From Yamagishiella unicocca (taxonomy: Eukaryota; Chlorophyta; Chlorophyceae; Chlamydomonadales; Volvocaceae): a DNA stretch of 64,000 nt. The first letter of the stretch is position 1. Every line of letters starts with the position of its first letter. The stretch is taken from assembly GCA_003116995.1 (NCBI GenBank), contig BDSL01000053.1:558001-622000 (forward strand), in the 5' to 3' direction. The position numbers and the translations under genes were made by a program. This document shows positions 4,184 to 56,237 of the stretch, piece by piece. Below the pieces are notes generated by a model, which saw only the letters and a list, made by a program, of their open reading frames with translations, was not told the origin of the DNA and made no database searches.

Positions 4184-7100
4184 TCACAGAGGTCGCAGCT
4201 CAAACCGCGTCATGATACTGATGTGGTCGCTGCCCCAGCCCTCCGCGGGCAGCCCCTGCGGCAGCAGCGCCAGGTCCGGCGGCTGCAGCACCGCCACCGG
4301 CACCAGCTGGAAACGAGGAGCTGGGCCATCGGCGGCCGCCTCGCCCCCGCCGCTGCTGCTGCCGCTGCTACTGCTGCTGCTACTGCCGCCGCTAGCCGAG
4401 GCGCAGCCGCCGTGCCGCTGCCCCTGCTCTTGGGAACCCTCGCCCTCGCCTCCGCGGCACCCGCACGGGGCCTCCCTGGAGGACGACCCTCCGCCAGGGC
4501 TCCCCCCCTGCTGCTGCTGCTGCGGACCCCGCCCCCCGGCTCCCGCGCCCCCCTGCAAGATGGCCTCGCCGGTGTACCAAATGAAGTCGACGGTGCCCAT
4601 GAAGCCGCTGTGGATGGACGTGAAGGAGGGCTCGGCGCGCGCCACCTCCATGTAGCTGCTCCGAAGCCGCAGCGGGTGCCGTACGACGAGATCCCCGCCC
4701 GCCTCGGACGCCGGCTCGCTTTGCGGGAAGTCCATGGACCGCCGCCCGCAGCCGGAGGGCCCTATGGACGACCCGTCGGCGCTGAAGCGGCTGACGGAGG
4801 GGCTCGTGTGTTGACGGCCCATCGCGCGGCAGCTGGAGCCGGATGGCGCCTGGTCACCTCCACAGACCCCGTCGAGGCCCGCGGCGTCGGGCCCGTCGCG
4901 CCCCTGCTGCTGCTGGCTGCCCCTCTGGCCGGCACCAGCGGAACAGCACGACGGCAGGCCCCGGCCGCCCAGCTGCTGGCGGCCCGAGCGGGCGGCCGTA
5001 AACTGCTCCCCCATGGCCAACCTCAGCTCCGAGTCCGACCACCGGTCGCGCTGCTTGGACAGAAAGGAGTCGAGCACCTTGGTGGCGGCGGCGGCCTTGG
5101 CCCCAGGCGACGCCGCCGCCGCCGCCGCCGCTGCAGCTGCCGCCACCGCCGTTGCAACTGCCGCCGCCGCGGCCCCCGTGGCGGTGGCGGCGGTGTCCGC
5201 GGCGATGCTTGCGAGCCGTTGAGCGACGGCCGCCGGCGAGGCAGTGGTCCCGGCGTCCGCCGCCCCCGCTGGGGGTCTCTCACGAGGTGTGAGGGGGGGA
5301 GATGCGCCGGCTGCCGTGACGGTGGCGTCGGTGGTGGTGGGGCTGGAGCCGGACGGTGCTGCTGCGGCGGCGGCGGCTGTCAGCTGCGCGTGCAGCTGCT
5401 TGACCTCCGACACGGGCTTGTACTGAGTGTGACACACGCCGTGGAGCTGACCTGCGGGCGCCACCGCGTGTTGCACGAGGGGTAGCATGAGGTGGAACCG
5501 GTGGGGCGGCGGGGGGCAGGGCAGGAGCGGGTTGAAGGGAGGTTGCAAGAAAAACCCGTGTACGAAAGGAAAATCGTTTACCGTTGACGGGAGGTGGGTC
5601 GGGGTGGTAAAGACTGTCGCTGGACGGACAGCAAACAAACGAGAGGCAGCCAGGACGCTCTGTCCGCACCCACGTCGCCAAAACCACAGCCCCCCCCCGC
5701 CCTCCGCAAGCTGTCCAAACCCATCCCCCACCCCATCCCCCCCCCATCGTCGCCGCCCCCCGCACCGCTGAGCTTCTTGCGGGCGGTCTGCGCCAGGTCC
5801 AGCGACCCACGGGTCACATACTGGTACAGCGGGCTGCCCGCGGTGCTGTTGAAGTCTCCCGTGATGATCGCCAGCGTCTGCAGGGGCGGCGCCAGCTGAC
5901 CCTCACCCGACCCCGCCTCGTGATCTGCCTGCCGGCCTGCCGCGCTGGGGGCCTTGCGCCTGCGGCCCTCGACCGCCGCGCCCCCCTGCGACTGCTGGAG
6001 GTCGCTGCCGCTGCCGCCGCCGCTGCCGCTGCTGCCGCCGCTGCCGCTGCTGCTGCCGCTGCTGCTGCTGCTGTGCGGCTCCTCCGCGGGCGGGTCTGCC
6101 GCCAAGTTGGCTGTGCGGTGGAGCAGGGTGCGCAGCTGGCCGAGCTTCACGTGGCCCTTGTCGGGGTCGAAGGTGATGTGGGTGGTGGTCACCAGCAGGC
6201 GCACGGAGGACAGGGCCTCGGCTGTGCGGCTGTAGGGGGGGAAGGAGGCGGTGTGTGTGTGTGTGTGGAATGGGAAACGGCCAGGGAGGTGGGGGCCGTG
6301 CAGGACTGCGCCATGCTTGGCGATGCGCCGTGGGGTTCGAGGTGTCGAGGTCGCCGCCTCCCTCGTCACCCGGCGGTGACACCGTTAAAACTCCCCGCCC
6401 CCCTCGCCCCCCCCCTCCCGGCCCCGCCCTCCACATACGCACCGGTCCATCCCCTCGGTGCTCCTGTGTCGTGGTGCCAGGCTGAGCATCATGGCCACGT
6501 TGTCATCCAGCTTAAGAGGCGCGAAGAACAGCTGCTGCGCGGAGCACACGCGCAACCGGTCCGTGCGCCTGCGGCGGTGAGAGCGCGGGTGCCGGGTCAT
6601 CGACTGCCACGCCAGCTGCCGAAAGACTGCTCCCACATAAACTCACACGCAGAAAGACCGGCATGCAGAAAGACTGCTCACACATAGTCACACGCAGAAA
6701 GACCGGCATGCAGAAAGACTGCTCCCACATAAACCCACATAACGCGGGAGGCCCTGGGCAGGGCACCCCCCACCCCACCGCGAAGGCTATGCAGGCGTAT
6801 GCAGCCACTACATTTCCCCAGTCGCGTTACCGGTTCTTTGATCGTAACCCCATCACGAAATTACTATGTCTACTGCACCAGCGCAAGGCCCCCCGGGGCA
6901 ACACCCATGCTTCGCCTGATTGTCTGACCGCCGATCGAGCCCGACAAACCGCGACACCTGCGGGGCGCGGCGAAAAACACGTTCACACGAACTAGGAGCC
7001 GGAGGGCGGAGGGCTTACCAAAAGGTCGCACAGCCGTCGCGCCTCCGCCCAGTTCGCCCAACGAAGCGCCCCTCGTAGCTGCGGTGGTAGCGGTGAGGGT

Positions 7101-9819
7101 TCTTGGGGGGTGAGGGTTTGAGGGGCGAGGGGCAGGGCGGGTGGAGCGGTGGCGGCAGCCCTGCCGGCAGCACGCCCTTACACAGGTCGCCTGATCGAAC
7201 CCCGTGCGACATAGCAGCGGTCCAGCGGCAGCTCAGCTGCCACCCCGGCAGCACCTAGAGGCCCTGGCTTCCAACTAACACGCAGCGTGGTCGGCCGCCC
7301 CTCCGCATGCTGCTGCTGCTCGCGGCACTGCCGCCTCCGTGTGTGTGACCGCCCGTGCTCCCTCCCTCGCCTCTCTCCAACACCCTTCCCTGCGACAGCA
7401 ACTCCCCCCCCCCTCCCGCAGCCCCCATCTCGGGTGTCAGCTCACCGGTCCCACCATCCCGCCCGTACCCATCCCGCCGGAACCGACGTCCGACACTCGC
7501 CGTATCCTAGCCTATCCGATACTTTGCCCCTCGTACGACCAACACGCGTTGCTCCGCTACCCACCCCATGTCCCGCATCTTCTCCTCCAGTTCCTGGTAG
7601 TGCTGCACCTCCTGCGGGTCGCCGGGGCAGCCGGGCGGGGAACGGGGCGAGCGGGGGTTTAAGGAGAATCCTCGAATCCACGGCCGACAAACCAAGGCGG
7701 TGATGATAGCGGGGCGAGCGGGGGGGACCACCACTGGGTGATAGCGGGGGGGACCACCATTGGGTGATAGCGGGGGGGACCACCACTGGGTGATAGCGGG
7801 GGGGACCACCACTGGGTGATAGCGGGGGGGACCACCACTGGGTGATAGCGGGGGGGACCACCACTGGGTGATAGCGCGGCGCGTGCCGTGCATCATCAGC
7901 GGCGCCGCCGCCGCATGGTGCACCTCACACCAACCACCACCAACCACCAACCGTCAAACCCACGTCCGGGTCGCCGTCCCGGCGGGGAGCGTACCCACGT
8001 GCCTTACCGGCGGCCAGCGCCCGCGCAGACAGCACCTGGGGCTGCCGTCCGATGGAGCACCGTCCCAAGACGTAACCCAAGACGTAACCCAAGACGTAAC
8101 CCAAGACGTAACCCAAGACGTAACCCAAGACGTAACCCAAGACGTAAGCGTAAGCGCTACTCGTGGTTTCCCCCTTCCTGCTCCCCCCACCTCCCACCCG
8201 CGCAACGCTCCTGCGCACCACCACCCCGCCATACCCCCCCCCCACTCTCATCCCGCTAGTAATGTCCTCTCTCCTCCTCTCAAAGCCAATTCCATGGGTT
8301 TCTTCGCCTCCCTCCGCTCCCACTGCCCCCCGCATTTCCCCGCCCCCCCCCCGGTTCTCCAGCATGCATCTCAAACGTCTGTTCTAAACGGTTTTTTCGG
8401 GCATCCACGGGTCTTCCTCGAACCCCCCCGGCCCCCACCTGCAAGCAAACCACATCCGGCTCCCAGTGGCGGATTTCCTCCAGCAGCAGCGGCCGCCGGT
8501 TCTCCCACCGCAAGTGCTCATCGGCCACGTCCCGGTACAACTTGGAAGCGAAGTGCTGGGCCTGAGGGCAGGCGGGTGGGAGGGTGGAGGGCGTTGCCGC
8601 TGAGACGCGAGTGTCGGGAGGTGGCGTGGGGCCCAGTTGGTTGCGAGATGGATGTGGGTCGCGTGTTTCGCGTTTCGCTTCGCGTGTTATACGGCCCCTC
8701 ATATGCCACCGCTGGTTTCCTACACTTGACTCCCCCCTGCCCGACTTGGGTCGCTGCAGGGTGCAGGGACGCCAACATGGGGGAGGCAGCCGGAGGCAGC
8801 CGGAGGCAGCCGGAGGATGGCGATGTCGGGTGTGCGGCGCGGACTGGGTTGAGAGGGGCGGGGGGAGGGGCCGCGCCGAGCTGGTGGGGCTGACTGGACG
8901 GCGCTGCAGGGAGTTGCGCTGGCAGGCCGCTCCGTTGGAAGGAGATGACGGGGTGAGAGGCTGCGCGCGAAGGGAATGCCGCGAAGGAAACCGTCCGACC
9001 GGCAGCTGGGGTCACCGGGATAACCCCGCGCGCATACACACGCACACACCCGGGACGCCGCCATCGACACTGCTCGCAAGTAGCGTGAGCCGCGACGGGA
9101 GCCGAGCAGTACTGCGCGGACGTGCAGGAGCCCAAGCCCAGAAGTTCGGGTGGTCCAGCCAGGTGTGCCCATCGCTTTCTGTGCAACGGATAATCTTAGC
9201 TGGCATGAAGCGCTGGACTTACATACGTGTCAGCGAGGATGTTGTAGCACATCACGCTGAACTTCCACGCCTGTGGCTGTGGCGATGTCTTCGCCGGGTC
9301 CGCCGGTTCCAGATCGCCCGCGCTGGGGCGCATGGGCGCTGGCGCCCCGAGAAGTGCAGATGAAGAGGCGCCAGATGCAGACGCTGATCTTGTGGCGGTC
9401 GGCGAGGCCGACGCTTGCGTCCAGACTCGTTGTCCATACTGTTGGGGAGTCGAGTCCCCCGTATCTGAAGCCTGGCAACCAAGCGACGCCTTTGGATTCG
9501 TTTGCTGAGGCTCAGCTTTCCGCAATGCGCCGGACTGCTCTTCCCGAAGAAACGCCTGCATGGACGTGTTCGCCAGCTGGACCGCAGCTGTGGAGCCGCA
9601 TCCAGCGGGCGCTGCCATGGCAGCTGCTGCAGCGCGAAGACTGCTGGTGACGCTCTGTGTGAATTCGTCAAGAGGCGAGTAAACAGGCGAGTAAACAGGT
9701 GCCGACTGTACTGACTTCTGCTGCGTCCTGCTGACATTTCCAGTGGCTTGAATATGCGATGCCATTGTTTGTACTTCACGGCGGACTCTCGCGCTGCTGC
9801 AGCGTCGAGCCCCAAACAT
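4184..9819 (-). CDS. CCR4-type exonuclease/deadenylase (endonuclease/exonuclease/phosphatase fold)
   Basis: Predicted Mg-dependent poly(A)-specific 3'-exonuclease related to CCR4/Angel/nocturnin, acting in mRNA turnover. Exons in minus order: 9819-9223, 8561-8439, 7611-7565, 7078-7019, 6568-6443, 6229-5766, 5451-4184 (894 codons). Family motifs appear in order: CYNILADTY near residue 197; WENRRPLL and DVVCLQE, the Glu being a metal ligand and the last two residues of the motif split by an intron; DGCATFW; LDDNVAMM; THITFDPDKGHVKLGQL; ITGDFNSTAGSPLY; and the C-terminal SDH motif GSDHISI just before the stop. The start chosen is ATG at 9819; a second in-frame ATG lies at 9765. There is no leucine-rich-repeat region, unlike yeast CCR4. 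Ser/Gly- and Ala-rich insertions interrupt the catalytic domain between the DFN and SDH motifs. Angel- or nocturnin-type substrates remain possible. Confidence 0.9.
5541..5579 (+). repeat. Intronic dispersed element, family A
   Basis: Carries TTGCAAGAAAAACCCGTG followed by TACGAA and a short A-rich tail. It lies in the last CCR4-type intron (5452-5765), on the acceptor side. In gene sense the TTGCAA end faces the exon. Related copies are at 21311, 43536, 48361 and 55884. Confidence 0.7.
6620..6740 (+). repeat. Tandem repeat, ~45-47-bp unit, about 2.5 copies
   Basis: Units beginning GAAAGACTGCTC start near 6621, 6668 and 6713. They lie inside the CCR4-type intron 6569-7018. Confidence 0.8.
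7656..7692 (+). repeat. Intronic dispersed element, family D (acceptor-proximal)
   Basis: Contains GTTTAAGGAGAATCC followed by a CCACGGCCGACAAA core. It lies 45-81 bp from the acceptor of CCR4-type intron 7612-8438. A second copy is at 37697-37732, in the opposite gene-sense orientation next to a donor. Confidence 0.7.
7720..7875 (+). repeat. 26-bp tandem array, about 6 copies
   Basis: The G-rich unit contains GGGGGACCACCACTGGGTG followed by ATAG. Copies are nearly identical, with one C-to-T difference. The array is in the middle of CCR4-type intron 7612-8438. Confidence 0.9.
8064..8147 (+). repeat. 12-bp tandem array, 7 copies
   Basis: The unit is CCAAGACGTAAC, perfectly repeated. It sits in the same CCR4-type intron as the 26-bp array. 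Confidence 0.9.
8355..8426 (+). repeat. Intronic dispersed element, family B (donor-proximal)
   Basis: Reads CAGCATGCATCTCAAACG, then TCTGTTCTAAACGG, a T-run, and CCACGGGTCTTCCTCGAA. In the sense of the minus-strand gene the CGAGGAAGACCC end lies just after the donor at 8438. Related copies are at 12794, 18799, 22454, 22619 and 32516. Confidence 0.85.
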
Positions 9820-10606: not shown

Positions 10607-13600
10607 ATGGCCGAGACACCGCAGGCGGCAACCACAACCACAACCACCGACAGGATGGCGCCCGGAAACCCACCTGGCGACGGCGCCCCCTTCGGTACCC
10701 CGCTGGTTGTCGCACGGCATGAACCCTCGTCAGCCTCCGATATGGTCCGCCGAGCACTAACCGCTCCTTGGCGCAGTGCGCAAGCAAAAGCCGACGCTTC
10801 GCGAGGCGGAGGCGCCGACCGCAGCGCCCACGTTATCGGGAGCGCCAGCACAGCTGTTGCCGCCGACGCTTCAGTCCGCAGCCGCATGAGCCTTCCTCGC
10901 AGTAACGGCAGCGGCGCGTCGCACCGCAGCCTCTTCACCATCGACGGCCTTCCCGAGCCCCTACCGGCCGATATCTCCGTAATCAGCATTCAGCAGGACG
11001 AAAGGAGCAGGGGCCGGGGCGGGGGTGGAAGCGTTGCCGGAGGCAGCCGCCATCAACCAGGGCGCCCATTCGCGCATGCTGCCACGGCCATCGGTGCTTC
11101 TACTGAGGCCAGCGGCTCTGGGCACCAACGGCAGCGGCAGGCACAGCAGCAGCGGCAGCAGTCTCCCTACGCCTACACCTCCACAGAGCAGTGGCAGGCG
11201 CGTAACTCTGCAGGAGGCTACTCGCCGCCCCCGCTACTGCCATCCTCAAGCATGCAGCAGCAGCAACAGGCCGCAGTAGCAGCTGTCCCGAACCAGACAG
11301 CTTCGACCGGTACGGGGTTGCTGGGCGTCATGCACGACTTGCTTGGTCTGTCGGGGGGGGCTGACGTGTTCGTACGCAACCGCAACAACCTCGTCACCAT
11401 CAACAACGTAAACATCAACAACCTCAACGTCAACACCATCAACGTCAACAACACGCGTGCCGCTGGCGCTGCTGTGGCCGGCACCGCCCACTCGGGCGAG
11501 CCGTTGCTTCCTGCGTCGCCCACCAGCGATGTACCCGCAGCGGCATCTCCCGGCAACGGCAACGGCAGCGGCACCGCCGCCGCCAACCACCTGCGCCAGG
11601 TGGCAGCCAGCCCCGGCCTGGACGACTACTGGGACAGCGCCCGCAACCCCATGAGCATCAACTACAACCCCTCCCTGGACCACCATCAGCACCCCCTGGA
11701 GCAGCAGCACCCCGCTGGCACCCCGGGCTCGCGCCAGCCCCGCCCTGTCAGCGGTGGTGCCGCCAACAGCGTGACGCCGTTGTCGCAGCCGCGTGAGTCA
11801 TCGTCCGACGGCAGGCGGGGGGCCGGCGCGGCGGCATTTGAGGCCGCTGCGGGGCCGGCGAACGGCGTAGGTGCCGCCGCCGCCAACGGCGCGTACGGCG
11901 CCCTACAGGGCGGCGGGAGCGGCCACGGCAGCGGGCAGTTCGTGGTGTTGGATATGAAGGGTCCCCTGGGCACCCCAAGCACAACGGAGGCCGCGGCCGC
12001 GGCGTTTGCGTCCGGAGCGGCTGCCTCCCCCGCGGCCCCGGAGGCCGCCGCCGCCGCAATGGGGCTGCCGCTGACGCTGCGCGGCCGCGTGGCGTCGTAC
12101 TTTGGGAAGTGGCGCGGAGTGGACGACACCCTGATGCCCGCGGATCAGCCCATCGACGTGTTTTGGTCGTGGCTGGGGGCCTTCCTGTCCATCCTGGTGG
12201 TGGCGGCGCTTAATGAGTACCTCACGTGAGGCGGGAGGGGGGAGGGAGACAGGGCGGGAGGGGGGAGGGAGAGGAGGGGAGGGAGAGGGAGGGCAGGGAA
12301 GGAGGAGGTGACGCCACCGGTGTGGGGCGACGATGCGGCTAGTCCGGTGAGAGGAACCCGGCATGACCCATGGCTAGTCATGGTGGCTCCAACTGCTCGC
12401 TCCAGTGACCCCCCCTCTCCCGCCCTCTCCCGCCCGCCGCCTGCCGCCTGCGTCACGTCCCCGGCCGCAGCCCCCGCGTCAGCCTGCCGCTCATGATCGC
12501 CTCGTTCGGAGCTTCAGCAGTGCTGCTCTTTGGGGTCCCCGCGTCCAAGCTCGCTCAGCCCCGGAACTTCTTGGGTGGGTGGCTGGCTGGCGGGGCGGGT
12601 GCGGGAGCCGGTCCAGCGGAAGGGAAGGGATCTGGGAGACCAGTGGCTGGCCAGGTGGCTGGGCAGGTGTGCTCTGCGAGGGCTGCCCCCTCTTCGCGTG
12701 TCCTTGCCGCCGCTCCCTCCTCCGCCGCCGCCGATTTCGCTTCGCCGCCGAAGGTCGACATGCGACCTCCGTCTTTTCCACACCCAACCTCTCCGGCATG
12801 CATCTCAAAGCGTCTGTCCTCCAAAAACGGTTTTTTTCGCATCCACGGGTCTTCCTCGAAACCTCCCGCCCTCTCCGCAGCCCTGGCCCCAGCTACACTT
12901 CCCATGTCGAGTAACCTGTCCGGTTCTTTTCTGCACACACACACACCCCGCAGGTGGCCAGGTGGTCAGCGCCGTGGTTGGGGTGCTGGTGCGACTGATG
13001 TTCACATCGGCGCCGCACCTGGTGTGGCTGTCGGCGGCGTTCGGCATGTCCCTGGCGCTGGCGGCCATGCAGCTGACGCGCACAGTGCACCCGCCGGGTG
13101 GGTGAGGGGATCGAGGAAGGCCCGCGGACTAGGAAGACCTACGAGTAGGAAACCGTTTGGTACACATGTTTGGAGATGCGCCCGCGGGGTGGGTGATCGG
13201 GTCAGGAGGGGTCCGCGAGCGCGCGGTGGGGCTGAGAGTGGGCGGACACAGCGGGCTAGGCTTTGGACGCTCGCTCTAGCCGTGCGGCAGCAGCACTGCT
13301 ATGTGCGGCTGGGACGAGACGAGACGAGGAGTGCACAGCCCCATGCCCTCCGCAACACTCCCGAGCCTTCCTTCGCAACGTCTGCTTCCCTGCTCCGGCT
13401 GGCGGGGGCGCCACACCACATTGCACATTGCACGTCGGTCGTTGGACATGTGCCACGGCCTCCGCCGTTTCCAACCCGGTACCCCACACACGTGGTGCAC
13501 ACCGCAGGCGGCGCCTCCGCCCTCATCGCCGCCTCCGCTCCCTACATCGGCCCCTGGCAAGGCTTCAAGTTCGTGCTGACTGTGTTTTTTGGCTGCGTCG

Positions 13601-15834: not shown

Positions 15835-18800
15835 CTACTCCTGCTGCTGCTGCCGCTGCTGCTGGCCCCCGCCGACCTGTACCTCCAGGTCTCTGATCCG
15901 TGCCTGCAGCTGCGCACTGGCTGTGCTGTGCGCCGCTGCCGCCGCCGCTGCCGCCGCTGCCTCCTTCTTGTGCGCCTCGCGCTCCTGAGCCGCCAGCGCG
16001 CGCAGCCGCTGGACCTCCTGCGCCAGCAGCGCGTTGTCGGCGCGGGCTCGCTCCAAAGCCACCTGCTGCTGCTGCTGCTGCTGCGGGGGCGGCGCGGGCA
16101 GCTGCTGGCGCGCCGCCGCGGCCGCAGCCGCTGCTTCCGCCTGCTCTCGCCGTTTGCGTTCGTCCACCTGGTACCAACGACGGGGTACGTGGGGGCCGAG
16201 AGCTAAGCGAGGCAGCATCAGGCCAGGCTGCAGCGGCGCAGGTGGCCTGAGCTGGGCTGCACCTGCCCCCTACTAGCACCCCGATCGTCGCGACTGGACC
16301 CGGACGCTCCCTGCTGGTGCCGCGCTGGTCACCTAAACGCTTCTTTGCCAGCCGCCCAAACTGAACCTGACCCACGCATTGCGAGCCCCTCCCCCTTCCC
16401 GCGGCTCTCCCCGCGCCCTTCCCGCCCTCCTCCGTGCCCTTCCCGCCCTCCTCCGCGCCCTTCCCGCCCTCCTCCGCGCCCTTCCCGCCCTCCTCCGCGC
16501 CCTTCCCGCCCTCCTCCGCGCCCTTCCCGCCCTCCTCCGCGCCCACCCTGCCCCACCCGCGCCCCCACACCCACCAGCTGCTGCTCCTGCTCCGCCAGTC
16601 GCGCCTGCAGCAGCTCAACCTGGCTGCTCCGCTCGTCCACCTCCTTGCTCCGCTGCTGCACCTGCCCCTGCAGCTCCGCCGCGCCCCGCTGAGCCTGCTC
16701 GGCCCGCTGCTGCTGCTCGTCCACCCGCTCTTGTAGCTCGTCCACCCGCCCTTGCAGCTCGTCCGCCCGCTGCTGCGCGACCAGCGTCGCCGCCGCGTTG
16801 CCGCCCACATCCCACTCCTGCAGCCGCCGCAGCAGCTCCCCGTTGTCGTCTCGCGCCTCAGCCAGCTGCGCCTGCAGCTGCGAGACCTGTGTCGGGGCGA
16901 CCGGTCGAGGGAGGGGCAGCAGCATTCAGGGACAGCCAGCGGGGCAGCCAGCGGGTAGCACGGGAGGCCACGTCTGTACGACCGTACGGGCGGCAGTAGG
17001 TACCTGTTGGGCATGGGCCGTACTCCGGCTTGTCAGCGTTTCTTGCAGCTGCGCGGCGAGCTGCTCCAGGGAGGTGCGCGCGGCGTCCGACTCCGCCAGC
17101 CGCGCCCGCAGCTGGGGTCGGAGCGGGGGAGGAGGGTGGCGGGGAGGGTGCACATCGTCACGTCACGTTCGGGAGCGTCATTCCGACCGCCGACAACGGA
17201 AGCATTGACGTTGGCAAGCAAGCAGGCCGTCGCAGAGTGCAACAAAAAGCCCAGCGCAGCGCACCACAGCACAGCATAGCACGGCGCAGCACAGCAAAGC
17301 ACAGCACGGCGCAGCACAGCACGGCGCGCACCTCCGCCGCCGGCCCCTCCCCCGCCCTCTCCAGCTCCAGCTCCCCCAGCCGCTCCGCCATGGCACGGTT
17401 GGCGTCTCGAAGCATGGACGTCTCGCTGATGGCCTCAGCGGCTTCGGAGCCTGCGGGGGGACAGCGGAGCGGGTGACGCGGGCTGACCTCCGCCTCCCAA
17501 CACAGGCGCCCGCCACAGCCCCGCCAAGTGGCGCCACACGCCCCAGGTCCCTCCCTGGAGCCGCAGCTCCGAGACCCACATGCCGTCTCCAACCGCTGGA
17601 CGAGCACGTCCACCAACCGCCGTACGTCCGCACGGCTCTGCAGGTGGATGCCCAGGCGAGCTAGCGGGTCGGCGGCAGCGCCGCCGTTGCCAGTCACGGC
17701 GGCGGCGCCGCCGCCGGCTGCCTGCCCGTGTTGTTGGTGGCGGTCCTGGTGGTGAGGTGGCGCTGCGCGCTGCGGGGTGCGCAAGGGGTGGGTTGGTGGC
17801 GGTCATGCAGCTCGATGTCGGGCAGGGAGTGGGGACAGTGCGGTCAGACGACTAGGAGCGGCTGACCATTCGACGCACCTCGTGTTCCCCTCCACCGCCA
17901 GTCACAGCGACCCGCGGGTCGTGCCCAGCGTACCCAGCACCGCCGCCGCGCGAGGCTCCCGCCAGCAGCCCCTCCTGCGCGCTAGCCCCTCCTGCGCCGG
18001 CGCCTGCAGCCCACGCCGCCGCTGCCGCCATGCTGGTCAACGCTGTGGTGCTGGCGGCGACGCTGGGCCCCGAGGCGTCGCTGGCGCTGTCGTCGCCGGC
18101 GACGCTGCCGCCGCCGCCGCCGGGGTAGGCGAGGTGGCGGCGGGTGGCAGCGGGCCCGTAGCTGGCCTCGGAGGGGGTTGCGGAGGGACTGGCGCCGCGA
18201 GGGAAGTCGGCGTCAGCCAGGGACGTGGAGCCGTCGGCCAGTAGCCTGTGGTGGTTTCGGAGGGCCGTTGGCGATGAGGTGTCAGCATAGGGCCCGCCTC
18301 CCGCCCTCGCTCCCCCCCTCCCCGGTTCTTTACTTGTAACCCCCCTCCCCGGCGTCCACAGGTTTGCCGGTCGTCCGTCCCAATGCTCCAGCATGCGCCC
18401 ACATCCTCGCTGTCCGCCGACCATGCGCCCACTATCCTGTCTTTTTCGTGTCACCGGCTTTCACGCCACCCCCCCGTCGTCCTCGCGGCCCTCGGCGCCC
18501 CCCACCCTGTCCGCGCGGCCCCCCGTGTGCTGCTCCCGCACCGCTGCTGCTCCAGCCTCCGCCGCTGCTGCTGCTGCTGCGCCCGCGCCAGGGCCTTATC
18601 GAACTCCAGGAACGACTTGAGCTGCGGCCCCCGCGCCACCTCCGCGGTGCCGATCAGCCGCCACAGCCAGCGCTCCAGCTCCCCGCGCCGGCGCTCCAGA
18701 GCGTCCCGCTTGTCGCCCAGCACCAGCGGGTGCTTCGGGGGCGGGGCCATGCCCCTGGCCGACATGACGCTGGGGAAGGCAGCCTTGAGCTGCCGGGCGG

Positions 18801-24211: not shown

Positions 24212-24216
24212 TGTAA
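24212..24216 (+). terminator. Candidate TGTAA poly(A) signal of the FSH hydrolase gene
   Basis: Plus-strand TGTAA about 690 bp after the stop at 23519. It is the signal nearest the convergent gene boundary. Confidence 0.4.
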
Positions 24217-24406
24217 GGTTGCGAAAGCCCCCATTGGCCTGTCCCTGCGCTAACCCCTTCCCTACTCGCCCGGAGCCTTGACAGCGGTCATTCGGTCCGT
24301 GAATTTGGCCTCGCCCCCACGGCCTGCTGGCTGGTGTGGTGTGCTGTCGAGCCCCTGCTTCTTAGGCTCGTAATTTGGCGCCACCAACAATACAGTGCAT
24401 CTGGGG

Positions 24407-24411
24407 TTACA
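24407..24411 (-). terminator. Candidate TGTAA poly(A) signal of the rhomboid gene
   Basis: Minus-strand TGTAA about 550 bp after the rhomboid stop at 24959. Confidence 0.4.
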
Positions 24412-40800: not shown

Positions 40801-41024
40801 AGTACTGTACTCGCGTTTGTGCTGATCGCATGTGCTGATCCCACGGTCGGTGCCGCCGTGCAGGACGATCTGGATTCGGAGCGGCGCCGGTCCGCCAGCG
40901 CCCTGCAGCAGGCGGGGCTGGTGCAGCAGCAGGCGCTAGCCTCCTCCGCGGCGCGGTACGCCGCCAGTTTGGCGTCACTGGGTACAGCGCAGCGGGCGCA
41001 GCAGGCGCAGCAGCAGCAGCAGGC

Positions 41025-41061
<37 letters not shown>

Positions 41062-42665: not shown

Positions 42666-45600
42666 CTCTAGGCGCGGGGAGGACTGGCCCAAGCTCCCTC
42701 ATGCTCCGCGGCGCACTCGCCCCTGCCATTATGCCGGCGGCGGCGGCTGCAACCATGCCACCCGTAGCTGCTATGACTGCGGCGGCGAGGTGGCGGTCGC
42801 CTGGGGCTCCTCCTCGGCCGGGTACGCCTTTACGCCTTTTGACAACACGAGATGACATGTCTCTGCATGCGTGCGCTGTGTGTGCAGCTTGCGCTGTGGA
42901 TGATCGACTTGCGCTGTGGATGGGCGACTTGTGCTGTGGATGAATCGACTTGCGCTGTGGATAACCGACTTGCGCTCAAGATGGATGACTGAGACATAAA
43001 AGGGGGGCTGGGTCGCTGCAGAAGAGGCTGCGTCGCCGCTTCCTGGTAAAGGCAAAACCGGTGACCAATCACGCGTATGCATCGTATATCGCCGCATTCG
43101 ACAGTACGACGCGCGGCTTCCTTCGGAATACTTCGTCATAGAAATGAAGCCTCTCCGGCGCCAACTCAATGGGACGCCCATCTACGCCTAGTCTACGTCT
43201 TGGGATAACTTATCCAACGCATGATGACGAGTCTCAGCGACTCTGTTTCCATGGTTACATTTCCATTAGGCTGCGCGCGAACTGCGGGTCGGTATTTACA
43301 ATCCTTGACCGCATCGCTGTGCGATAATCGTACGTATTTATTTACTTTGCGCAGCGAATGGCGGCAACAGTGCATTTGCCAGCGGCAGCGGCGCGCGTCA
43401 GAACCCCGGGCCCACGTGGCATTATGTGATCCGGCTGCCAGCGTGTAGCCGCCACGTAAGGGCTTAGGGGGCGTGCGCGTTGGCACGGCAGCCACCGGCC
43501 GGGGATGGGGCGTGTGGTAGCGGGTCGGGGAGGGATGTTGCAAGGAAAACCCGTGTACGAAGAAAATCGGGGAGGGATGGGTCGGCGGTGGTGGCGGGTG
43601 CGGGAGGAGATGCAGCTGGCAGGCATCTTTCCGGCGCCCATGCGCCTGCCGGTTGCTGCGGCTACGGTGAGTTAGTGGGGAGGGGAGGTCCCTCGGGAGG
43701 GAGGAGGGACGAGGGGAGATGTGCGGGGGTGCGGGTCCCGAGAGGGGTTGGACGAGTGGCAGCATGCGACAACGCGGTGTGGTTTCTGCGTTCCGCCGAT
43801 GATGGGAGCACGGATGCATGGTGGCGGTGGCTGGCTTGCTGGTTGATTGGTTGGTTGGTTGGCGTATTTCAGATGTCATGGGTGCCGGGCAGCGCGTCAT
43901 GGTGGTTCTCATGCCGTTGCTTAGGGGGCTCCGCGGGAGGCACGTGTCTGTTGTTGGGCGGAAGGACCCAATGCATACATGCATGGTTGGTTGAGGGATC
44001 TCGCCCCCGCGGCTGCTGCTGGCTGAAACCCGGAGTTGCCGACCGCGGCCCCGCGCGAAGAGTACACCATTCTTATGCATTGTTACCCGGCAGCAGTACG
44101 TCCGCGTCCGGGCACGTGAGCGGGGGAGGCGCCAGGCCGGTTTCCTATTGGTTTCCGCCTAGAGCCCGGCCTGTGAGTCGAGACATCTTGTGCGGGTGCT
44201 CCCACGCCGAGTCTGGACGTTGACGTCGAAGGATGAGCGGCTGCGTACTGACCACCCCAATGGGTCCATTCGGGAGCGTGGCACTGGCGGTGCCCAGGCA
44301 GGGGCCCGAGAGGGGCGAGGGAGGGAGCTAGAGCGTGACGTGGGGCCGTGAGCACGTGTCAAGCGGGTTGGTAATGGCCTGCCACCGCCACGACCATCAC
44401 TGTCACGATTGTCACTGCCACAACCATCACTGTCACGACCATCACTACCAAGGCGGCCTGAGTGCAGCAGTGATGCCGTGCGCGGCCTTCGGAGGCGTGT
44501 GCGGACTTGACCACTGTGGGTTGCTGGTCATATTTCCTTAGGGATTGGTCCATGTAGCTTATCACTTGTCCGGCCATGTTTACATGCGGTGCGAGCGCTG
44601 AGTGGCGCTCGAGCAATTTGCCGGTTGGCGCGGTTGGCTTTACGGCGCGGTTGAATGGAGAAATTCCAGGTTACAATTTTGTTGTTGACCTCTGCCAGGT
44701 TGCCTTTTTGAGCGGGGAGGGAGATCAGTTGAGCGCTGTGACCGGCGGAGGGCGCACTCCTTCAAGACGGTACCGTATCAGTCCGGCCCGTTTTGTCCTG
44801 CCGCGCGAGCGGCGACGAAGTTTTGATAGCAGGGTTGGTTGTTGGCGACTCTGCGCCGGGAATATTTTACGAAGATGCACCTGGACAACCGCGTGGGTGG
44901 GACGTGAGACTGCGGGGCGGGGGCTAGTTGGCTCTCGACCGAGTGCTTTAGAGTGGGCGGGTGGGGGCGGGTGTCCGCCAGATGCGTGATTACCCGCACT
45001 GCTGTCTACTCTTTGTGCGTGAACGTTGCCCGTGTTTGGGCCAGCACCAATGTGGAAATGAAACGCGAAAAGGACAGCCGCGGCATGGAAATGAATCACC
45101 CATGTGTACGGACTCTTGGGACGAGCGCGCCTCATTGCATGCCTGCGGTGCAAACAGCGCGAGCTGTGGGGCAGTCCGCGCTCCCAGAAGTGTTGGCGTG
45201 CATGGCTGCGCTATTAGATTTGATTGCACCTACAAAGATCTAATGCGTATAATGCCTGTTGGCCAGAGGGCGCTGTGGTATTTACCGGTATTCGGCGGTT
45301 GTAAGTTGAGTTTTTGCCTGCATTGACGAGGTGGTTCCCTGATACTGGATCGCTACTACGGTGCGTCACACGTACTCCCGTGTCTTCCGTCGCGTGAAGT
45401 CAATACCTCCTCCTATTTGGGTTCCTTTCTCGGGACTTCCAGCCAAAGCGTAACACGGCCCACGGTCTTTGCCTTTCCTGCTTTCGTCACCTTCGACTTG
45501 GCAGTGCCGCACTGCCGGTTCTTCCCGCCATGCCGCGCCTCCGTTGTCTACCTCGGCCGCAAACCGCACTGGCATAGTGTGCTGCGATGTGCCCGGAGGT

Positions 45601-46319: not shown

Positions 46320-49300
46320 GTCCTGGTGGTGGATGCAGGCGATGCAGCGGAGGTGGCGAGGTTCCTACGCGAAGATGCATTTTGGTTAAAGCAGGCTGAT
46401 AAGAAAGATAGGCGCACCGCGTGGCACATCGCCGCGGAGAATGGTCACATCGAGGTGAGCGCGCTGTCATACATGATGCGCCAACTTGATGCTACCATCC
46501 TCGTGAGTGATTCGGTAGGGCGCTCCAAGCCGTAGCTCGCTAGCGCCGAACCTATGTTTCGTACGAGTATTGCATATTGCTAGCGGAGACGGCAACGCGT
46601 GCGCGCCTCGCTGGGTAAGCAATCTACGGGTCGGCGTCTTTTACCAGAATTCCGATTTTGCAGTGATGGCCGTTGACGTCCTCTCCGCCGCACCCTTCGC
46701 GCTCTCCCATCTCCTGGCCCCTCTGCGCGATAAACCTTGGCTGCTGTTGAATGAACACGTTGCTGTTCCTATCCCTGATACCATTCCGAACTCCGATGCC
46801 AATTCGGGCCTACGTCAGCCACAATACACCTCTCCCGAGTTGCTTCCCCTCTTGGCCACCCCGCCCTCAATCACCACATTTCGCCCGATATCTCCAGACT
46901 CTGTCTTGCCAGACCTGACCTGCCCCATCCCGCCTCTTTACGCCACAGGCACTTTATGCCACCTCCCCCTCTTTATGCCACCCCACCCCCTTCATGCCAC
47001 AGTTTCTTTGTGCCACCCCTTCCCCCACTTTAAGCCCCACCCCCTTTTAATGCCGCCCCCCCCTCCGCCCTCCTACCTCTCCAACAGCACGCAGGGGCTT
47101 TCTGCGCCCACCTACCCACCGCTTATCCCCCGACACCAACACATCCTAACAGCAACCCAACCCGTCTCTGGCGCACCGCCACCTCCCATCCCACCTCACA
47201 CTTGGACCCCTTCCCACGTCTTTTGCAACCTCACTGGACGGCGCCGCTCCCGCCTCGTGCCCTTTTGCCCCCGCCTGTGTCCCTCACCTGCAGGTGCTGC
47301 GTGCGCTGGCGGACCGCACGAGGGAGGAGGACGTGGGGCTCATGTGGAGCGGACACATGTCGCTGTCGTCCCGTATCATGGCGATGGCGCGGGACCCCCT
47401 GGGTCCGGAGGAGGTGGGCGGCCGGTGTCGGTTGGGGGACGTCGGAGCAACCCCATGGCCGGACGCACAAGGGAAAAAACGGTGGATAGCCGGCAGATGG
47501 AGAACGCTGGTCGGGCGGAGGCGGGACGGAGGGTAAAACCGTGAACTGGCAACGAGGCGGGGGCCATGGCGGGGCGGAGGTGGGGGCCGGAGGCACAGGG
47601 CGTACTTCCGAAAGCAACGTTGCTGTTGGCGTTAGGCAAGGAGGCCGCTTCCCAGCCGTCTTCTTCTTGCCAATCGGCCTGAGCATGGTCCGCTCCCCTC
47701 CGCCCCGGTGTTTCCCCCCCGGTCCTCTCAGCGTGTGGTGGAGATGGTCAACGGCCGCAGCGCCTGGGGGGTCACACCGCTTGCTCTGGCGGCGGTGAAC
47801 GAGCAGGCGGACGCAATCAAGTACTTGCTCTCGATAGGTAGGTGGGCGGAGGGGTTTGATAGGAAAAAAGGGCGGAGGGGAAACGTGGAGGCGTCAAGGT
47901 CCAACACACGGGCGGGCCAGGGCGAGCAGGGGCAATGGATGAGGCAGGGCATAGGGGGACAGCGGCGGAGTCAAGTACAACGGACGGACGGATGGCTTGG
48001 GGCGTGGGGCAGCAACGGTGTGTTGGCTGAGGCGGTCGCCTTCCTGGATATGGACGACATATGTATGGTGCGGGTGCAGCACCGCTCCCACATGCATCAT
48101 GTGGCGGGTCTCACGCCTCGGACGAGTACCTGCGGCGGCTGGCCCGCGCCCTGACCGCCCGTGTGTGCCCCCTCCCACCGGCCCTCCGACCCACGGGCTT
48201 TCCTCACAAACCTCCCTCCGGCCACCCGCCTCGCCGCGGACGTCTGCCCGGTCCCAGGCGCCGACCCCTGGCTGGGCGATCACGAGGGGCGCAATGCGGC
48301 GCACTACGCGGCGAAGGCGGGATCCATACGGGGGCTGCAGGTGGGCGCAGGGGAGGAGGGGGGGTTGCAAGGAAAACCCGTAGGGAGGAGGGGCGGGGGT
48401 GTTGTAGAAACCGTTTTACGCGACGGGACAGGATAGTTGGCGCATGGTCGTCGGGGGGTTGGGGGTGGAGGTGAGGGGGTCAGAGCTCGGGAAGAGTATG
48501 GGACACACACGCGGCGAGCTGGTTGCGGTCAGAGCCGAGGTTTCGGAGCTGGGCCGGGCTGGGCTGGGACACGGTCATGCAGGGCTAGGTCGGGGCTCTT
48601 GCAGCATCTCCCTCAGCCCCGGGAGGGGTCTGGCGTAGATCAGATCGGACTGGAGGCTTCTTCCGTCCCACAACGCCGTGTTGTGGCATACACACCGTTA
48701 CCCGTCACCCGTGCTGCCGCAGGTGCTGCTGCAGGAGGAGAGGCCCGCCAGCAGCCGGGCCGCCAGCCATAACCACTCGGGGACCAGGTGGGCCGGGGCG
48801 GGGCCCGGGGATGGTGGCTGCCTCGGGGTATAATGATGATCATCATGCCTTGCTGACAGGGGCTTCTCGGGTCTCCAGCCCATCCACCGTCTCCAGCCGC
48901 CGCCGCGCGGGCGGCATTTCCTCCTCCCCGTTCCCCCCCGGCCTTCACTCCCTGTCCTCCCCTTCCCTCCCCTGTCCTCCGCTCCCAGATACGTGGACTC
49001 CATGGACGCCTTCGGCTTCACCCCGCTGCACTACGCCACCTGGGCCAACCGCCGCTCCGCCATGATGCTGCTGGTTGGCTTCGATGCCAACATCATCGCC
49101 AGATCGCTGGTGCGACCACACCCGCACTACCACCACCACCACCCGCACCACCACCACCACCACCACACGCGCCCGCAAATACAACCACCGTTGTCGACCA
49201 CGCCACCACCACCACCACCACCAGTACAGACGCCACGTAGCCGACGGGGCAAAGCGCCAGGGACACGTGGGCCAGGTCCGGCTGCTAGTTCTCTGGGTTG

Positions 49301-52300: not shown

Positions 52301-55300
52301 TGATGCTGCCACGGACGGGGCGGACCCGGATGGCGGCGGTGCCGCCAGCCTCACCCGTACGATGTTGCAGCGGCTTTACCGCGGGTCGCTCAGGCGACAG
52401 AGCAGCGGCGGCGCGTCCAGTGCGCGAGCGCAGGCGGCGGCGCAGCTGAATGAACGGCTGAACCGCGCGGGAATCACCATTCCGGAAGGGCCGGATGAGG
52501 AGGTGGCGTTCTTCAGGTGGGTTAGGGAACCGGGGGAGGAGGGGGATGGCAACTGGGTTGGCGCCGAATGGGAGTTGGGTCAGCATTGGATGCCATATGG
52601 GTCAGCATTGGATGCCATATGGGTCGGCATTGGATGCCATATGGGTCGGCATTGGATGCCATATGGGTCGGCGCTGAATGGGTTGTGGGTCGGCGCTGAC
52701 CTGCGGGAACGTCTCGGTGCTCAAGAGCCTGGTCGGCAAGGGCATCGTCAGCAACGTGACGAATGCGCTGAACCTCGTGGGCGCGATCGCGATGGGCAAC
52801 ATGGACTGGTTTTTGAGGCTGAGCGGGCAGGTCTAAGACGAGAGTCGTGAGCATGCTCACGCTCGTCTAAATCTGCCCGCTTAGCCTCAAAAACCAGCCC
52901 ATGTTGCCCATCGCGATCGCGCCCACGAGGTTCAGCGCATTCGTCACGTTGCTGACGATGTTGTGGGTTGGCTCGATGGTGCTTAGGCCACATATTGCTC
53001 TCGCCTGCCAAGGGGTTCACATGGCACCTTCACAACTTCAACAGCAAAACCTTGTCTCCTCGACTTCCCCGCGTGCTCATCACTGTACCGTGCCCGCGCC
53101 GTGCCTACGTGCAGTCCTGGTCGGGAGCCTCGCTACAACATGCCCACCCAGATCCTCCTACCAGGACAGCGCCCCTCGGAAACGTCCAACGGCGTTTTAG
53201 CGCGGCCAATGTCCAGGCGGACGTCGCTGGAGCAGGCCGCAGCGGCCCAGCAGGGTCAGGGAGTAGAACCGGGCCCGACCCGTGGGTCGCTGGACCAGAC
53301 GCGCGGAGGCACAGCGGACAGCACCCGGGTGCTGCACGCGAGTGGAGCCGGGGAGGGGGAAGGGGTGGCTGGCGCCAGCGGAGGAGCGGAAGCGGCCGGC
53401 GCGGTGCTGGCAGCGGTCCCGAGCTCCGGCCTCTTGGCGGGGGCAGACGACAGCGGCACGGTGACGACGCTCCTGACGGAGCTGCTCGCCAGCAACGGGG
53501 GCGCGGAGGTCGGCGGCTCCGCCGATGCCGATGCGGGCGGTGCGGCGCCTCGGCAGCCCCGGCCCTTGGAGCTGCCGTCCCTGACCACCGTGGAGCGCCT
53601 GCCGCCGCCGGCGCCACCGCGGCTGTCAGTCACGTTCGAGGAGGGTGCCGCCGCCGAAGGGCAGGGCGGCGCCCCCTCCTCACCCGCATCCACGGGCCTT
53701 CCTCGAAACCCCTCCTCACCCCAGCAGGGGTCCAGCCAGGTCTCGCCGGCGGGAGGCGCACCGTCATCGCCTCGGTCCTCTCCCGCTGCTGCCGTGAGCC
53801 CTGGCAGCAGCACCGTCATCGCAGCCTCCACCTACCGCTCCATGGACAGCAGCAGCTCGCAGACGCAGCTGCAGATGCAGACCCAGGGCTCACTGCAGCT
53901 GCCCGGCACCGCCGCAGAGCCGCCGGCCTCGATTCCGCCCTCGTTCGCCCCTGCCTCCGCGGAGCTCGGTGGTGCCGGTGGCAGCCTCGCGCAGATCCGG
54001 CCGGCTGGCGCGAGCAGCAGCAGCAGCCGCACGCAGGTGGTGGACGGCTTGCCGCATTTGGGCGACCAGCAGGTCCCCACGCCAGCCCCGGCCGTGGCAG
54101 CGGCCGGAACGGCTGCGACGGAGGGAGGCGCGACGGTGAGTTGCGATAGCTGCACGTGGAACGTGACGTGGGTACCGGGACAGAAATGAGGGAACCATGC
54201 TCGACGTCCTGTTCTCGCCACCCAGCGGCCACCCACCGCAGTATGTGTTGCTTCCGCGGCTCCCAACCAACAAATCAACCAGCTAACGGTATCGACCCAG
54301 CAGTGCAACGAGAACCGAGTGTGCGCGCGATCACTGACACGGCGACTCCCTCCGGCCCTGGCGGGCTGGGGCTCCTGCCGGCCGCTTGCCGCCCTGATCA
54401 GTGCTCACACGGCCCCCCCGGCCCCCTGGTTTTCCCCTGGTGCCGCAGGGCGATGAGCAGAGCTGGGGCTTGGGGCGGGTGGGGGCGGGCGCGAGGATGC
54501 TGCTCAACAGCTTGAAGAGCACTCTCCGCCGAACAAGTGGGCAGCACCAGGCGCAGGTGCGTGTGGGGGGGAGGGGGGGGAGACAACCAACCCTTGCCTC
54601 GACATATGAGAAGGAAGGGAATTACGAGCGGGGAATAGATTACTTCATGGGATGGGGTAGGGAGAGGTGGGGTGAGGTGTGGGCGGCCTTGCGGGTATGA
54701 GAGAAACCCCGTGAAGAGTAGGACCGTGGCCTTGCGGGTGGGTTCGGCACCATGTTGATCGGCCACTGGAAGGCGAGGACATGCAACCCGGTTCCTCGGG
54801 GGCACCCACGGCCCTGCTACGGACTCCGCCGGCGCTACGTAAGCGCCGTGATTTCAGGTCCGCAACCGCCTCCGCTCGGGCTGCCGCCCCTCGAGGACGT
54901 ATCGTCACCCGGCTTACGTCCTCGATACCCCACCTCTGTCCACTCCCACGCCTCCATGCCATCAAAGCACGCACCTGCATCCCCGCCGCTCACTCCCGGA
55001 AGTGGCGCCCTGGTGCAGGTGCTGCCGCTGGAGCACGCTCCCCGCGGCGCCAGCCCCAGCCGCGGCCACCGGCATCGGCGCCGGCACCCGGAGCAGCGCT
55101 CCGAAGCCAACACCGGCCCGCCGCCCCCCGGCGGTGACGACGCCGACGGCCGCGAGCCGCCCGCGTCACCCAACACCTCGCACCACCGCGGCAACGCCTA
55201 CCACCACCACCACCACCACCTGACGCCGAGAGGCGTGCGCCTAGCGAGCGCCCGCCCACACGCCCGCGTCTCCATGTTCGGACGAGCCAGCGCAGCCAAC

Positions 55301-56237
55301 AGCGTCGACGGCGGCGACGCCGTCCGCAGCCCCAACGGTGCTGGGAGGCGCCGCAGCCGCGCGGCGCTGTCGAAGCGCTCGCTGCTGGCGGCGGCGCGGC
55401 ACATCGCCGGCGAGCCGAGGGGCCAAGACGACGACGGCGGGGCTGAGGGGACGGACAAGGATGGCGAGGAGGAGGAGGAGGGGGAGGTGGCGGGTGACGA
55501 GGTGGCTCAGGGGGGCGGGGTGCTGCGAGTGGACGACTGCTCGTCCTTCTCGTCCACCTGCTCGATGAGGGCGCGGGCCAGCACAGCCGATGCTGCCGGG
55601 ACGGCTGCGACGACGGAGGGCACCGCTGGCGGAGGCGCTGCGGCCGCCGCTGCGGCGGCCGCCGGCGATGACAGCGACGAAGACGTGTGCCCGGTGTGTC
55701 TGGACGAGCCGCCCAATTTACTGGTGAGGGCGGGGGCGTGGCGTGGTGGGGCGGCGAGGCGAGGTGGTAGAGGCCAACCGCACGGATCTTCCTTGCCGTC
55801 CTCCTCTGACGGTCCACTCCTGGGCACTATTCGGCTGCGTCTCTCGCCACCCTAGTGCAATGCGGCTGAATCCCGCGCGACTCGAACACGGGTTTTCCTT
55901 CGTACACGGGTTTTCCTTCGTACACGGGTTTTCCTTGCAACCCCCCCGCCTACGGGTTTCCTCCTGAACCTCACACAGTCGCCAGGCTCCCGCCGCGCGC
56001 TGCCGACAGCTTGCTTGCGCACCGCCGCGCGTCCCGCCGCGCACTGCTGCTGGCCCCTCCTCACACCTCTTCCAACCCCGCGTGCAGGTCCAGACGTGTC
56101 GCCACCCGATCTGCATGGGTTGCGCGAGGGACCTGGTCAAGCGGCACAGCCTCACGCCGGCGTTGTGCCCCTACTGCCGCGGAGTCATATCCAGCTTCAA
56201 GGCGCGGGTAGCGCCGGGCGCGATGTCGCGGCGTTAA
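46320..56237 (+). CDS. Ankyrin-repeat RING-finger E3 ubiquitin ligase (XB3/XBAT-like), 5' end unresolved
   Basis: Exons 46320-46454, 47294-47413, 47732-47837, 48258-48340, 48723-48787, 48989-49109, 49588-49692, 50409-50548, 50813-50941, 51167-51353, 51702-52516, 53115-54135, 54449-54556, 55019-55723, 56088-56237 (1329 codons plus stop). The N-terminal half has about six ankyrin repeats: TAWHIAAENGHIEVLRALAD, GVTPLALAAVNEQADAIKYL, GRNAAHYAAKAGSIRGLQVL, GFTPLHYATWANRRSAMMLL, STPLHVACLLGCLDRVKLLL, RLPFHVAARCGHRHLLDWL. A charged helix and ~600 low-complexity residues follow. The C-terminus is a C3HC4 RING: CPVC, then TCRHPICMGC, then CPYC. Plant ankyrin-RING proteins of this layout ubiquitinate substrates bound by the repeats. 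The first coding exon upstream of 46320 is not identified, so the start given is the first certain exon, not the initiator. Confidence 0.85.
48361..48380 (+). repeat. Intronic dispersed element, family A, short (donor-proximal)
   Basis: GGTTGCAAGGAAAACCCGTA about 20 bp after the donor of the ankyrin-RING intron 48341-48722, followed by a family C copy. Confidence 0.65.
48404..48452 (+). repeat. Intronic dispersed element, family C (donor-proximal)
   Basis: AGAAACCGTTTTACGCGAC then GGGACAGGATAGTTGGCGC and ATGGTCGTCGG, in intron 48341-48722. Same gene-sense orientation as the PX donor-side copy at 18413. Confidence 0.8.
49772..50093 (+). repeat. 21-bp tandem array, about 15 copies
   Basis: The unit is GGGATCTTGAGCTGGCAGAG plus C, alternating GAG/GGC at one site. 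It lies in the ankyrin-RING intron 49693-50408. Because 21 is a multiple of three, all frames stay open and give misleading repeat proteins. Confidence 0.95.
52576..52690 (+). repeat. 22-bp tandem array, about 5 copies
   Basis: The unit resembles ATGGGTCGGCATTGGATGCC plus AT, in ankyrin-RING intron 52517-53114, directly upstream of the large inverted repeat. Confidence 0.9.
52743..52960. repeat. ~100-bp near-perfect inverted repeat (long hairpin) in an intron
   Basis: The left arm (52743-52840) and the reverse complement of the right arm (52861-52960) match for the first 60 bases without a difference. They then differ at three positions and one short indel. The centre is the perfect palindrome GTGAGCATGCTCAC at 52847-52860, so there is almost no loop. 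The left arm carries a GC3-rich open frame (IVSNVTNALNLVGAIAMGN) ending in TAA. No consensus acceptor precedes it, and the flanking exons splice in phase across it. Confidence 0.9.
55884..55942 (+). repeat. Family A element, tandem triplicate of its core
   Basis: Three successive ACACGGGTTTTCCTTCG-type units, the last ending GGGTTTTCCTTGCAAC, in the last ankyrin-RING intron 55724-56087. Acceptor-side orientation. Confidence 0.75.

Follow-up and report, generated by a model that had tools for sequence, protein, structure and literature searches.

Introduction

Penelope-like retroelements, introners and 5′-truncated long interspersed nuclear elements (LINEs) are the closest described counterparts of a set of short intronic repeats that we analyse here in the green alga Yamagishiella unicocca. 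The window is a 64,000-nt stretch of its 133.4-Mb genome (C53:558001-622000, contig BDSL01000053.1; 64.5% G+C). The repeats are very probably 5′-truncated copies of Penelope-like (telomerase-related) retroelements, which would insert by priming at GGG and owe most of their orientation relative to splice sites to the polarity of the introns. An original prediction, made from the sequence of the window alone, had read them as introner-like families with terminal inverted repeats (TIRs).

Canonical Penelope elements carry a GIY-YIG endonuclease; the sections of two reports that treat them describe a telomerase-related reverse transcriptase (RT) and a proposed target-primed mechanism (PMC3846280, PMC11167929). 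Unlike the elements described in those sections, the one studied here shows no detected endonuclease domain beside its RT and no hammerhead ribozyme in its loci. Endonuclease-deficient Penelope-like elements, of which Athena is a named member, use chromosome ends or double-strand breaks according to part of one of these reports (PMC3846280). As far as that part goes, our element resembles them in its telomerase-related RT and its 5′ truncation, and short target-site duplications (TSDs) occur in the wider Penelope group; in contrast, its copies sit for the most part inside introns, next to G-rich tracts, and their orientation toward splice sites is near-strict. Coprina also belongs to the endonuclease-deficient Penelope-like group.

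The introner screen of Gozashti et al. (2022), in the section that defines its boundaries, asks that sequence similarity begin no more than five exonic or ten intronic bases from each end of the intron (PMC9860276). Like the introners of that section, the repeats studied here occur within introns of numerous unrelated genes, have ends close to splice sites and come in both orientations. They differ in that none of 46 element-bearing introns passes the both-boundary criterion and in that they appear to enlarge existing introns. Intronic 5′-truncated LINE insertions have a fixed 3′ end, a ragged 5′ end and TSDs, and arise by target-primed reverse transcription. Our copies have the same three features, but their primer preference is G-rich, not T-rich, and with polar introns their orientation is predictable from position. 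Searches of open-licence papers, judged by titles and abstract openings, show no report of such an orientation pattern.

The repeats occupy introns and face the nearer exon

Genes were modelled ab initio with a home-made two-strand hidden Markov model (HMM), trained iteratively on the window and 200 kb of contig C1 (264 kb together). Six profiles (A, AB, C, D, E and F) recognise 63 copies in these 264 kb: 55 in introns, six in predicted intergenic DNA and two in predicted exons. The window holds 27 of them, 24 intronic. Extrapolation from these 63 copies, found in 0.2% of the genome, gives ~32,000 copies genome-wide, a figure that carries no error estimate.

Motif counts over the whole genome, with mismatches allowed and the pattern read backwards as control, cover the B core and families A, C and E. 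The B core 17-mer GGAAAACCCGTGGATGC has 2798 matches at ≤1 mismatch. At ≤2 mismatches, the family A 23-mer has 1477, the family C 20-mer 1732 and the family E 23-mer 886. Every reversed control gives 0, which rules out a chance origin of the repeats, and the motifs are present at the positions given by the original prediction. Its list of families (A to D) is revised: A and B are subfamilies of one element, and the hybrid copy at 21380 bears out the relatedness claimed for them; the segment GCATGCTGG is interior to family B; and a further family, E, is found. Family F is identified by TTGTGAGGAAAGCCC. A listing of families from exact 10-mers after G-runs was dropped as too noisy. Aligned copies have a sharp end in common (TTTCGAGGAAGACCC in family B), which we call the head. 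Family heads also occur as tandem arrays, with periods of 44, 57 and 18 nt, at G000:C14:182796-183038, at L035 (C25:975158-975323) and at 55887-55940 of the window.

An 81-nt query from family B matches 40 places on many contigs at 98-100% identity (the best 40 of 2686 candidates). Therefore, family B is partly young. These 40 near-identical copies were fetched genome-wide, and removal of two segmental duplicates of locus L044 leaves 38 young copies.

The head points toward the nearer splice site in 53 of the 55 intronic copies. The window contributes 23 of 24, and the C1 sample, which is independent and lies outside the DNA behind the original prediction, contributes 30 of 31; the two exceptions are at 6846 in the window and 92983 in the C1 sample. 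Among the young copies, 34 of 38 are intronic and 33 can be placed. Of these 33, 31 face the nearer exon, and for 11 of the 31 the exon behind the copy falls outside the 971-nt locus. The rule still holds for 10 of 11 copies more than 130 nt from splice sites. The orientation rule is near-strict, not strict. The original prediction, based on 15 intronic copies in six genes without a breach, thus identified a general rule but overstated its strictness; it was right that one and the same end faces the nearer exon and that mobile elements have colonised introns, which they have done genome-wide.

One end is fixed and the other is ragged

GGG is immediately adjacent to the head in 33 of 38 young copies and no more than 8 nt away in 36; in the sample of all families, 52 of 63 copies have it within this distance. 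The tail is cut off at variable distances from the head: ~25 nt (copy at 53708), 37 nt (32516), ~80 nt and up to 524 nt. Matched lengths are 17-87 nt in the unselected sample, where the profiles set the upper limit, and 75-524 nt among copies selected with the 81-nt query. Long copies of 138, 198, 221, 465, 516 and 524 nt are present, of which the two longest extend to the limit of the fetched locus.

TSDs were scored with G matches discounted and with all mismatched flank pairs as control. Flank pairs exceed the 99th percentile of the control in 13 of 38 young and 14 of 63 sample copies, and the 95th percentile in 18 of 38 and 20 of 63, respectively. The TSDs above the 99th percentile are 7-20 nt long and come from families A, AB, C, D and E. 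Loci L037, L056 and L058 show flank duplications; at L037, a candidate exonic insertion, the reading frame is, by eye, open on either side of the TSD.

None of the 38 young copies carries the reverse complement of the head at its opposite end. This rules out a TIR DNA element or a miniature inverted-repeat transposable element, and the inverted repeats of the original prediction fall with it. Read on the opposite strand, the repeats are a retroposon whose 3′ end is constant and whose 5′ end is truncated, and the donor-side and acceptor-side copies are separate insertions of this retroposon. One fixed end with variable truncation, combined with TSDs of variable length, is the structure of a target-primed retroposon.

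Polar introns offer probable G-tract targets

In 210 canonical introns without elements, the first tenth is 47% G and 22% C, and the last tenth is 22% G and 47% C. This G-to-C polarity is strong and symmetric, also where no element is recognisable. The G/C skew is nearly equal in introns with and without elements. Therefore, the recognisable copies do not explain the polarity, and the idea that the elements made it is rejected. Runs of at least six G or C occur 3.45 times per kb in introns and 1.03 times per kb in intergenic DNA, a 3.3-fold difference.

We propose that the element RNA would end in ...TCTTCCTCGAAA(CCC) and would pair with GGG at the 3′ end of a nicked or broken strand. Target-primed reverse transcription would then copy the RNA, and the new strand would read GGG-head-tail. 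With G near the donor and C near the acceptor on the sense strand, GGG-3′ ends would point into the intron from both sides, which may be why the head faces the nearer exon. Each insertion would add a fragment and a G-rich TSD to a pre-existing intron and would sometimes duplicate a splice site. Coding exons may be spared through selection and through having fewer G-tracts than introns.

The target is described by a 16-nt matrix, trained on the 38 young copies, none of them from the test set, and applied to the C1 sample and the window. In the 38 copies, positions -3, -2 and -1 are each G in 88-90%. For introns, intergenic DNA and coding exons, the target weights given by the matrix are 75.9%, 12.5% and 11.6%, and the observed shares of copies are 87%, 10% and 3%; over all sites, the matrix predicts that 85.8% face the nearer exon. 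When matched for distance, it expects 46.8 of 55 copies to do so, and 53 are observed (P = 0.006). If each intron contributes a single copy, 39.9 are expected and 44 of 46 observed (P = 0.04). A plain G-run null (runs of 4, 5 or 6 G) gives 43-45 of 55; it falls short, and the matrix does better. Because the G-tract matrix predicts most of the facing (46.8 of 55, against 53 observed), the orientation rule is mostly passive, with a modest unexplained excess.

That excess could be a sign of transcription-coupled targeting, an active preference in which nicks or R-loops at the G-rich intron ends of transcribed genes attract the element; the preponderance of introns over intergenic DNA, 55 copies to 6, would suit it as well. 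However, an R-loop model for the non-template strand does not predict the acceptor-side copies, whose G-tract is on the template strand, and the matrix by itself puts 76% of the weight in introns. We hold transcription coupling to be very unlikely. Alternatively, both orientations might insert, and selection might purge wrong-way copies near splice sites, for example those with the pyrimidine-rich CTTCCTCGAAACCCC in sense near a donor. Both the small excess over the passive model and the shortage of coding-exon copies (2 of 63, versus the 11.6% predicted by the matrix) point in this direction. On the other hand, copies more than 130 nt from splice sites, where selection should be weak, obey in 10 of 11 cases, and the near-identical, presumably young copies obey in 31 of 33. 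Selection has a low probability of being the source of the rule, and insertion by GGG priming in polar introns remains the preferred reading.

Two A/B loci run into a telomerase-related reverse transcriptase

At two loci, L030+L069 and L073, the sequence is collinear from an A/B-type 3′ end into an RT frame. The closest fold to this RT is that of telomerase, as in a telomerase-related RT. Homologues are present in Chlamydomonas, Tetrabaena, Gonium, Pleodorina and Volvox. Neither the RT nor its RNA has a useful match in Pfam, in PDB (searched by sequence) or in Rfam. PF26215 is only a precomputed label on the RT homologues; a Pfam scan of five such proteins does not return it and gives sub-threshold RVT_1 matches in three. 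In a pseudo-LTR (long terminal repeat) test, a 28-nt inverted repeat of the 3′ end is present upstream at L073, where nested copies confuse the signal. At L072 (C154), which carries another copy of the RT element, a short A/B copy lies between C-tracts ~80-100 nt after the RT stop. Because the homology between L072 and L073 runs on past it, this A/B-type end is a nested copy and is rejected as the 3′ end of that RT element itself.

A second, related RT lineage has the 3′ end TTTTATAAATGC / TTTTATAAATGCTGAGC and follows GT repeats (GTGTG) in 4 of 4 copies examined (L074, C302:16000-20400; L075, C1:2536800-2541200; L012:1663; L022:8561). The L012 copy is intronic, 14 nt from the donor, and points toward it. 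Such behaviour would be expected if the 3′ end of each element picks a matching primer.

Several points weigh against reading the repeats as truncated Penelope-like copies placed by GGG priming. Only 23 of 63 sample copies have GGG immediately next to the head (heads of diverged copies being extrapolated), the majority of copies are without a significant TSD, and the orientation exceeds what the matrix expects in both calculations above. The gene models are ab initio and miss at least one small exon. The link to RT concerns A/B at two loci, and the RT at L030+L069 has an internal deletion. The G-rich flank is common to families C, D, E and F, and TSDs to the first three; a search for RTs of these four families found none, the second lineage fetched being the one that follows GT repeats. 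GIY-YIG is not found beside the RT, as neither of the two Pfam matches genome-wide adjoins it, though a divergent domain could escape this search, and Rfam detects no hammerhead ribozyme in 31 kb of element loci. Therefore, membership in the Penelope group is incomplete.

The lengths of the 38 young copies pose a further difficulty. They peak at 79-83 and 104-110 nt, which could mean a separate short non-autonomous form, a retroposon of ~80-110 nt resembling a short interspersed nuclear element and mobilised in trans by a Penelope-like RT. In line with such a form, short copies far outnumber RT-bearing ones, with 2798 matches of the B core motif and 46 RT matches in the genome. However, the long copies listed above exceed this range, and collinearity with the RT element is seen in the longest. 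In addition, the sequence is G-rich at the peaks, so that the 5′ junction could be set there by microhomology with the G-rich target, and the 81-nt query favours copies of ~80 nt. We consider the short form unlikely and retain truncation of the RT element as the preferred reading.

Elements appear to enlarge introns that already exist

The copies recognised in the window are as follows (distances are to the splice site named).

3379..3399, minus strand: family F, weak; predicted intergenic DNA
5543..5579, plus strand: family A; intron of minus-strand gene 4184-9064; faces acceptor at 91 nt; TSD-like GTTGAAGGGAGG (one mismatch)
6793..6846, minus strand: family E; intronic, sole window exception; donor at 718 nt, acceptor at 277 nt, faces donor; intron of 996 nt
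7658..7696, plus strand: family D; faces acceptor at 46 nt; exact 15-nt TSD-like repeat CGGGGCGAGCGGGGG
8349..8423, minus strand: family B; faces donor at 15 nt
12782..12861, minus strand: family B; faces acceptor at 92 nt
12875..12936, minus strand: family E; same intron as 12782..12861; faces acceptor at 17 nt
13109..13181, plus strand: A/B; faces donor at 11 nt; 20-nt TSD (two mismatches) spans the exon/intron junction and repeats the donor
18377..18465, minus strand: family C; minus-strand gene; faces donor at 76 nt
18796..18874, plus strand: family B; faces acceptor at 26 nt
19027..19074, plus strand: family E; same intron as 18796..18874; faces acceptor; 13-nt TSD TGGGTTAGGAGGG
21029..21085, plus strand: family E; faces donor at 17 nt; TSD-like TTTGGAGGG
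21304..21380, minus strand: A/B hybrid; same intron as 21029..21085; 69 nt from acceptor; the pair faces outward and mimics TIRs
22452..22500, minus strand: family B; faces acceptor at 48 nt; exon junctions backed by gap-free protein alignment
22619..22697, plus strand: family B; faces donor at 9 nt; TSD GAGAGGTGTGTG straddles the exon/donor junction 22609/22610
26660..26695, plus strand: family C, weak; faces acceptor at 49 nt
27180..27249, plus strand: family C; faces acceptor at 33 nt
27258..27283, plus strand: family F; same intron as 27180..27249; faces acceptor
27523..27547, minus strand: family E, weak; same intron as 27180..27249; faces donor at 20 nt
32516..32552, plus strand: family B, 37 nt; donor half, faces donor; TSD-like CTGGGGAG
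37700..37733, plus strand: family D; faces donor at 16 nt
43538..43562, plus strand: family A; predicted intergenic DNA; exact 13-nt TSD TCGGGGAGGGATG
48184..48209, minus strand: family F; faces acceptor at 48 nt
48365..48381, plus strand: family A, match of 17 nt only; faces donor at 24 nt
48404..48454, plus strand: family C; immediately after the A copy 48365..48381, same orientation
53684..53708, minus strand: family B, cut to ~25 nt; exact 13-nt TSD GGGTGAGGAGGGG; exonic in the model, acceptor pyrimidine tract by eye
55859..55940, minus strand: family A; first 18 nt tandemly repeated three times; acceptor half, faces acceptor

Of the 46 element-bearing introns, two have an element within 10 nt of the donor, none has one within 10 nt of the acceptor or of both splice sites, and none is spanned by an element. 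Introns with elements have a median length of 404 nt, compared with 276 nt without. After removal of the elements and a nominal 13-nt TSD for each, at least 194 nt remain in all 46 introns (median 325.5 nt). This residue is still longer than element-free introns (P = 0.003), as expected from insertion into existing, larger introns.

These values bear on the proposal that the repeats are introners, that is, TIR DNA elements that enter exons and become introns with both ends at splice sites. Intronic enrichment (55 of 63 copies), heads 5-20 nt from splice sites, outward-facing pairs in 2 of 7 multi-copy introns and TSDs that contain splice sites would all agree with it. However, inverted ends are missing from all 38 young copies and one end is ragged; no intron has an element near both splice sites; every intron keeps a residue once its elements are removed; and two of the longest copies continue into the RT frame. 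With 0 of 46 introns bounded at both ends and residual introns of at least 194 nt, introner identity is rejected for this sample. An origin of the introns from such elements, one of the two options of the original prediction, is extremely improbable. Instead, the elements appear to fill introns that were already there.

Twelve copies lie no more than 20 nt from a splice site, and for four of them the TSD contains that site. The TSD includes the donor at 13109 (two mismatches) and 22619 in the window and at 3285 in the C1 sample, and the acceptor at 40400 in the C1 sample (one mismatch). TSDs of this kind leave two candidate splice sites around the insertion (window 13098-13181 and 22610-22697; C1 3285 and 40400). 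The recognised fragments amount to 2.9 kb, and because this is only ~3% of the 98.6 kb of intron sampled, they are no demonstration that fragments drive intron length.

Gene models and other features of the window

The HMM converged on 34 genes with 281 introns, of which 256 are canonical; 274 introns exceed 40 nt, with a median of 304.5 nt. Its splice consensus is AG/GTGNG at the donor and a C-rich sequence before GCAG at the acceptor. In the serine-hydrolase gene at 20090-23519, the exons that flank element-bearing introns align without gaps to proteins of Pleodorina, Volvox africanus and C. schloesseri, and a small exon elsewhere in the gene is overlooked by the model. Fragments of six other window genes contain Pfam domains (HPP, PX, rhomboid, rhodopsin-histidine kinase, ankyrin and endonuclease/exonuclease/phosphatase, the last below the curated Pfam cut-off). 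The best matches of one predicted window protein are in Pleodorina starrii (76% identity), Volvox africanus (73%) and Chlamydomonas and Edaphochlamys species (70-71%).

The predicted gene at 30405-42665 encodes bacteriorhodopsin-like, HisKA and HATPase domains, followed by what look, by eye, like response-regulator and cyclase sequences; it is a putative enzyme rhodopsin. In the ankyrin gene, a 21-bp minisatellite (49687-50152) lies mostly in a predicted coding exon, with the repeat GILSWQS, and a near-perfect inverted repeat of 93 nt (52743-52960; 96% complementary, 32-nt loop) crosses a predicted exon/intron border. Further minisatellites are at 7691-7898 (26 bp), 30081-30257 (18 bp), 35380-35593 (20 bp) and 52522-52697 (22 bp). 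All of these except the one at 30081-30257 lie mainly in predicted introns, and the one at 7691-7898 begins beside a family D copy.

Implications

An endonuclease-less, telomerase-related element might prime on GGG-3′ ends at both G-rich borders of an intron as though these were telomere ends. Through repeated addition of a tail and a G-rich TSD, it might grow introns inward from the two sides, reinforce their polarity and occasionally copy a splice site. We regard this extension as rather unlikely, and the nearly equal skew of introns with and without elements weighs against its polarity-reinforcing part. If true, it would provide a recurrent source of intron length and of alternative splice sites in volvocine algae. 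As part of one report describes, volvocine introns are conspicuously long, and the driver is likely ancient (PMC8226300).

The orientation rule becomes a testable mechanism, made up of the strand polarity of introns and a G-primed retroelement. It also calls for caution, as an intron with an outward-facing retroposon tail near each end can pass for an introner with inverted repeats. With 63 recognised copies in 264 kb, the elements are a dense source from which introns can grow and splice sites be duplicated, in a group whose introns are unusually long.

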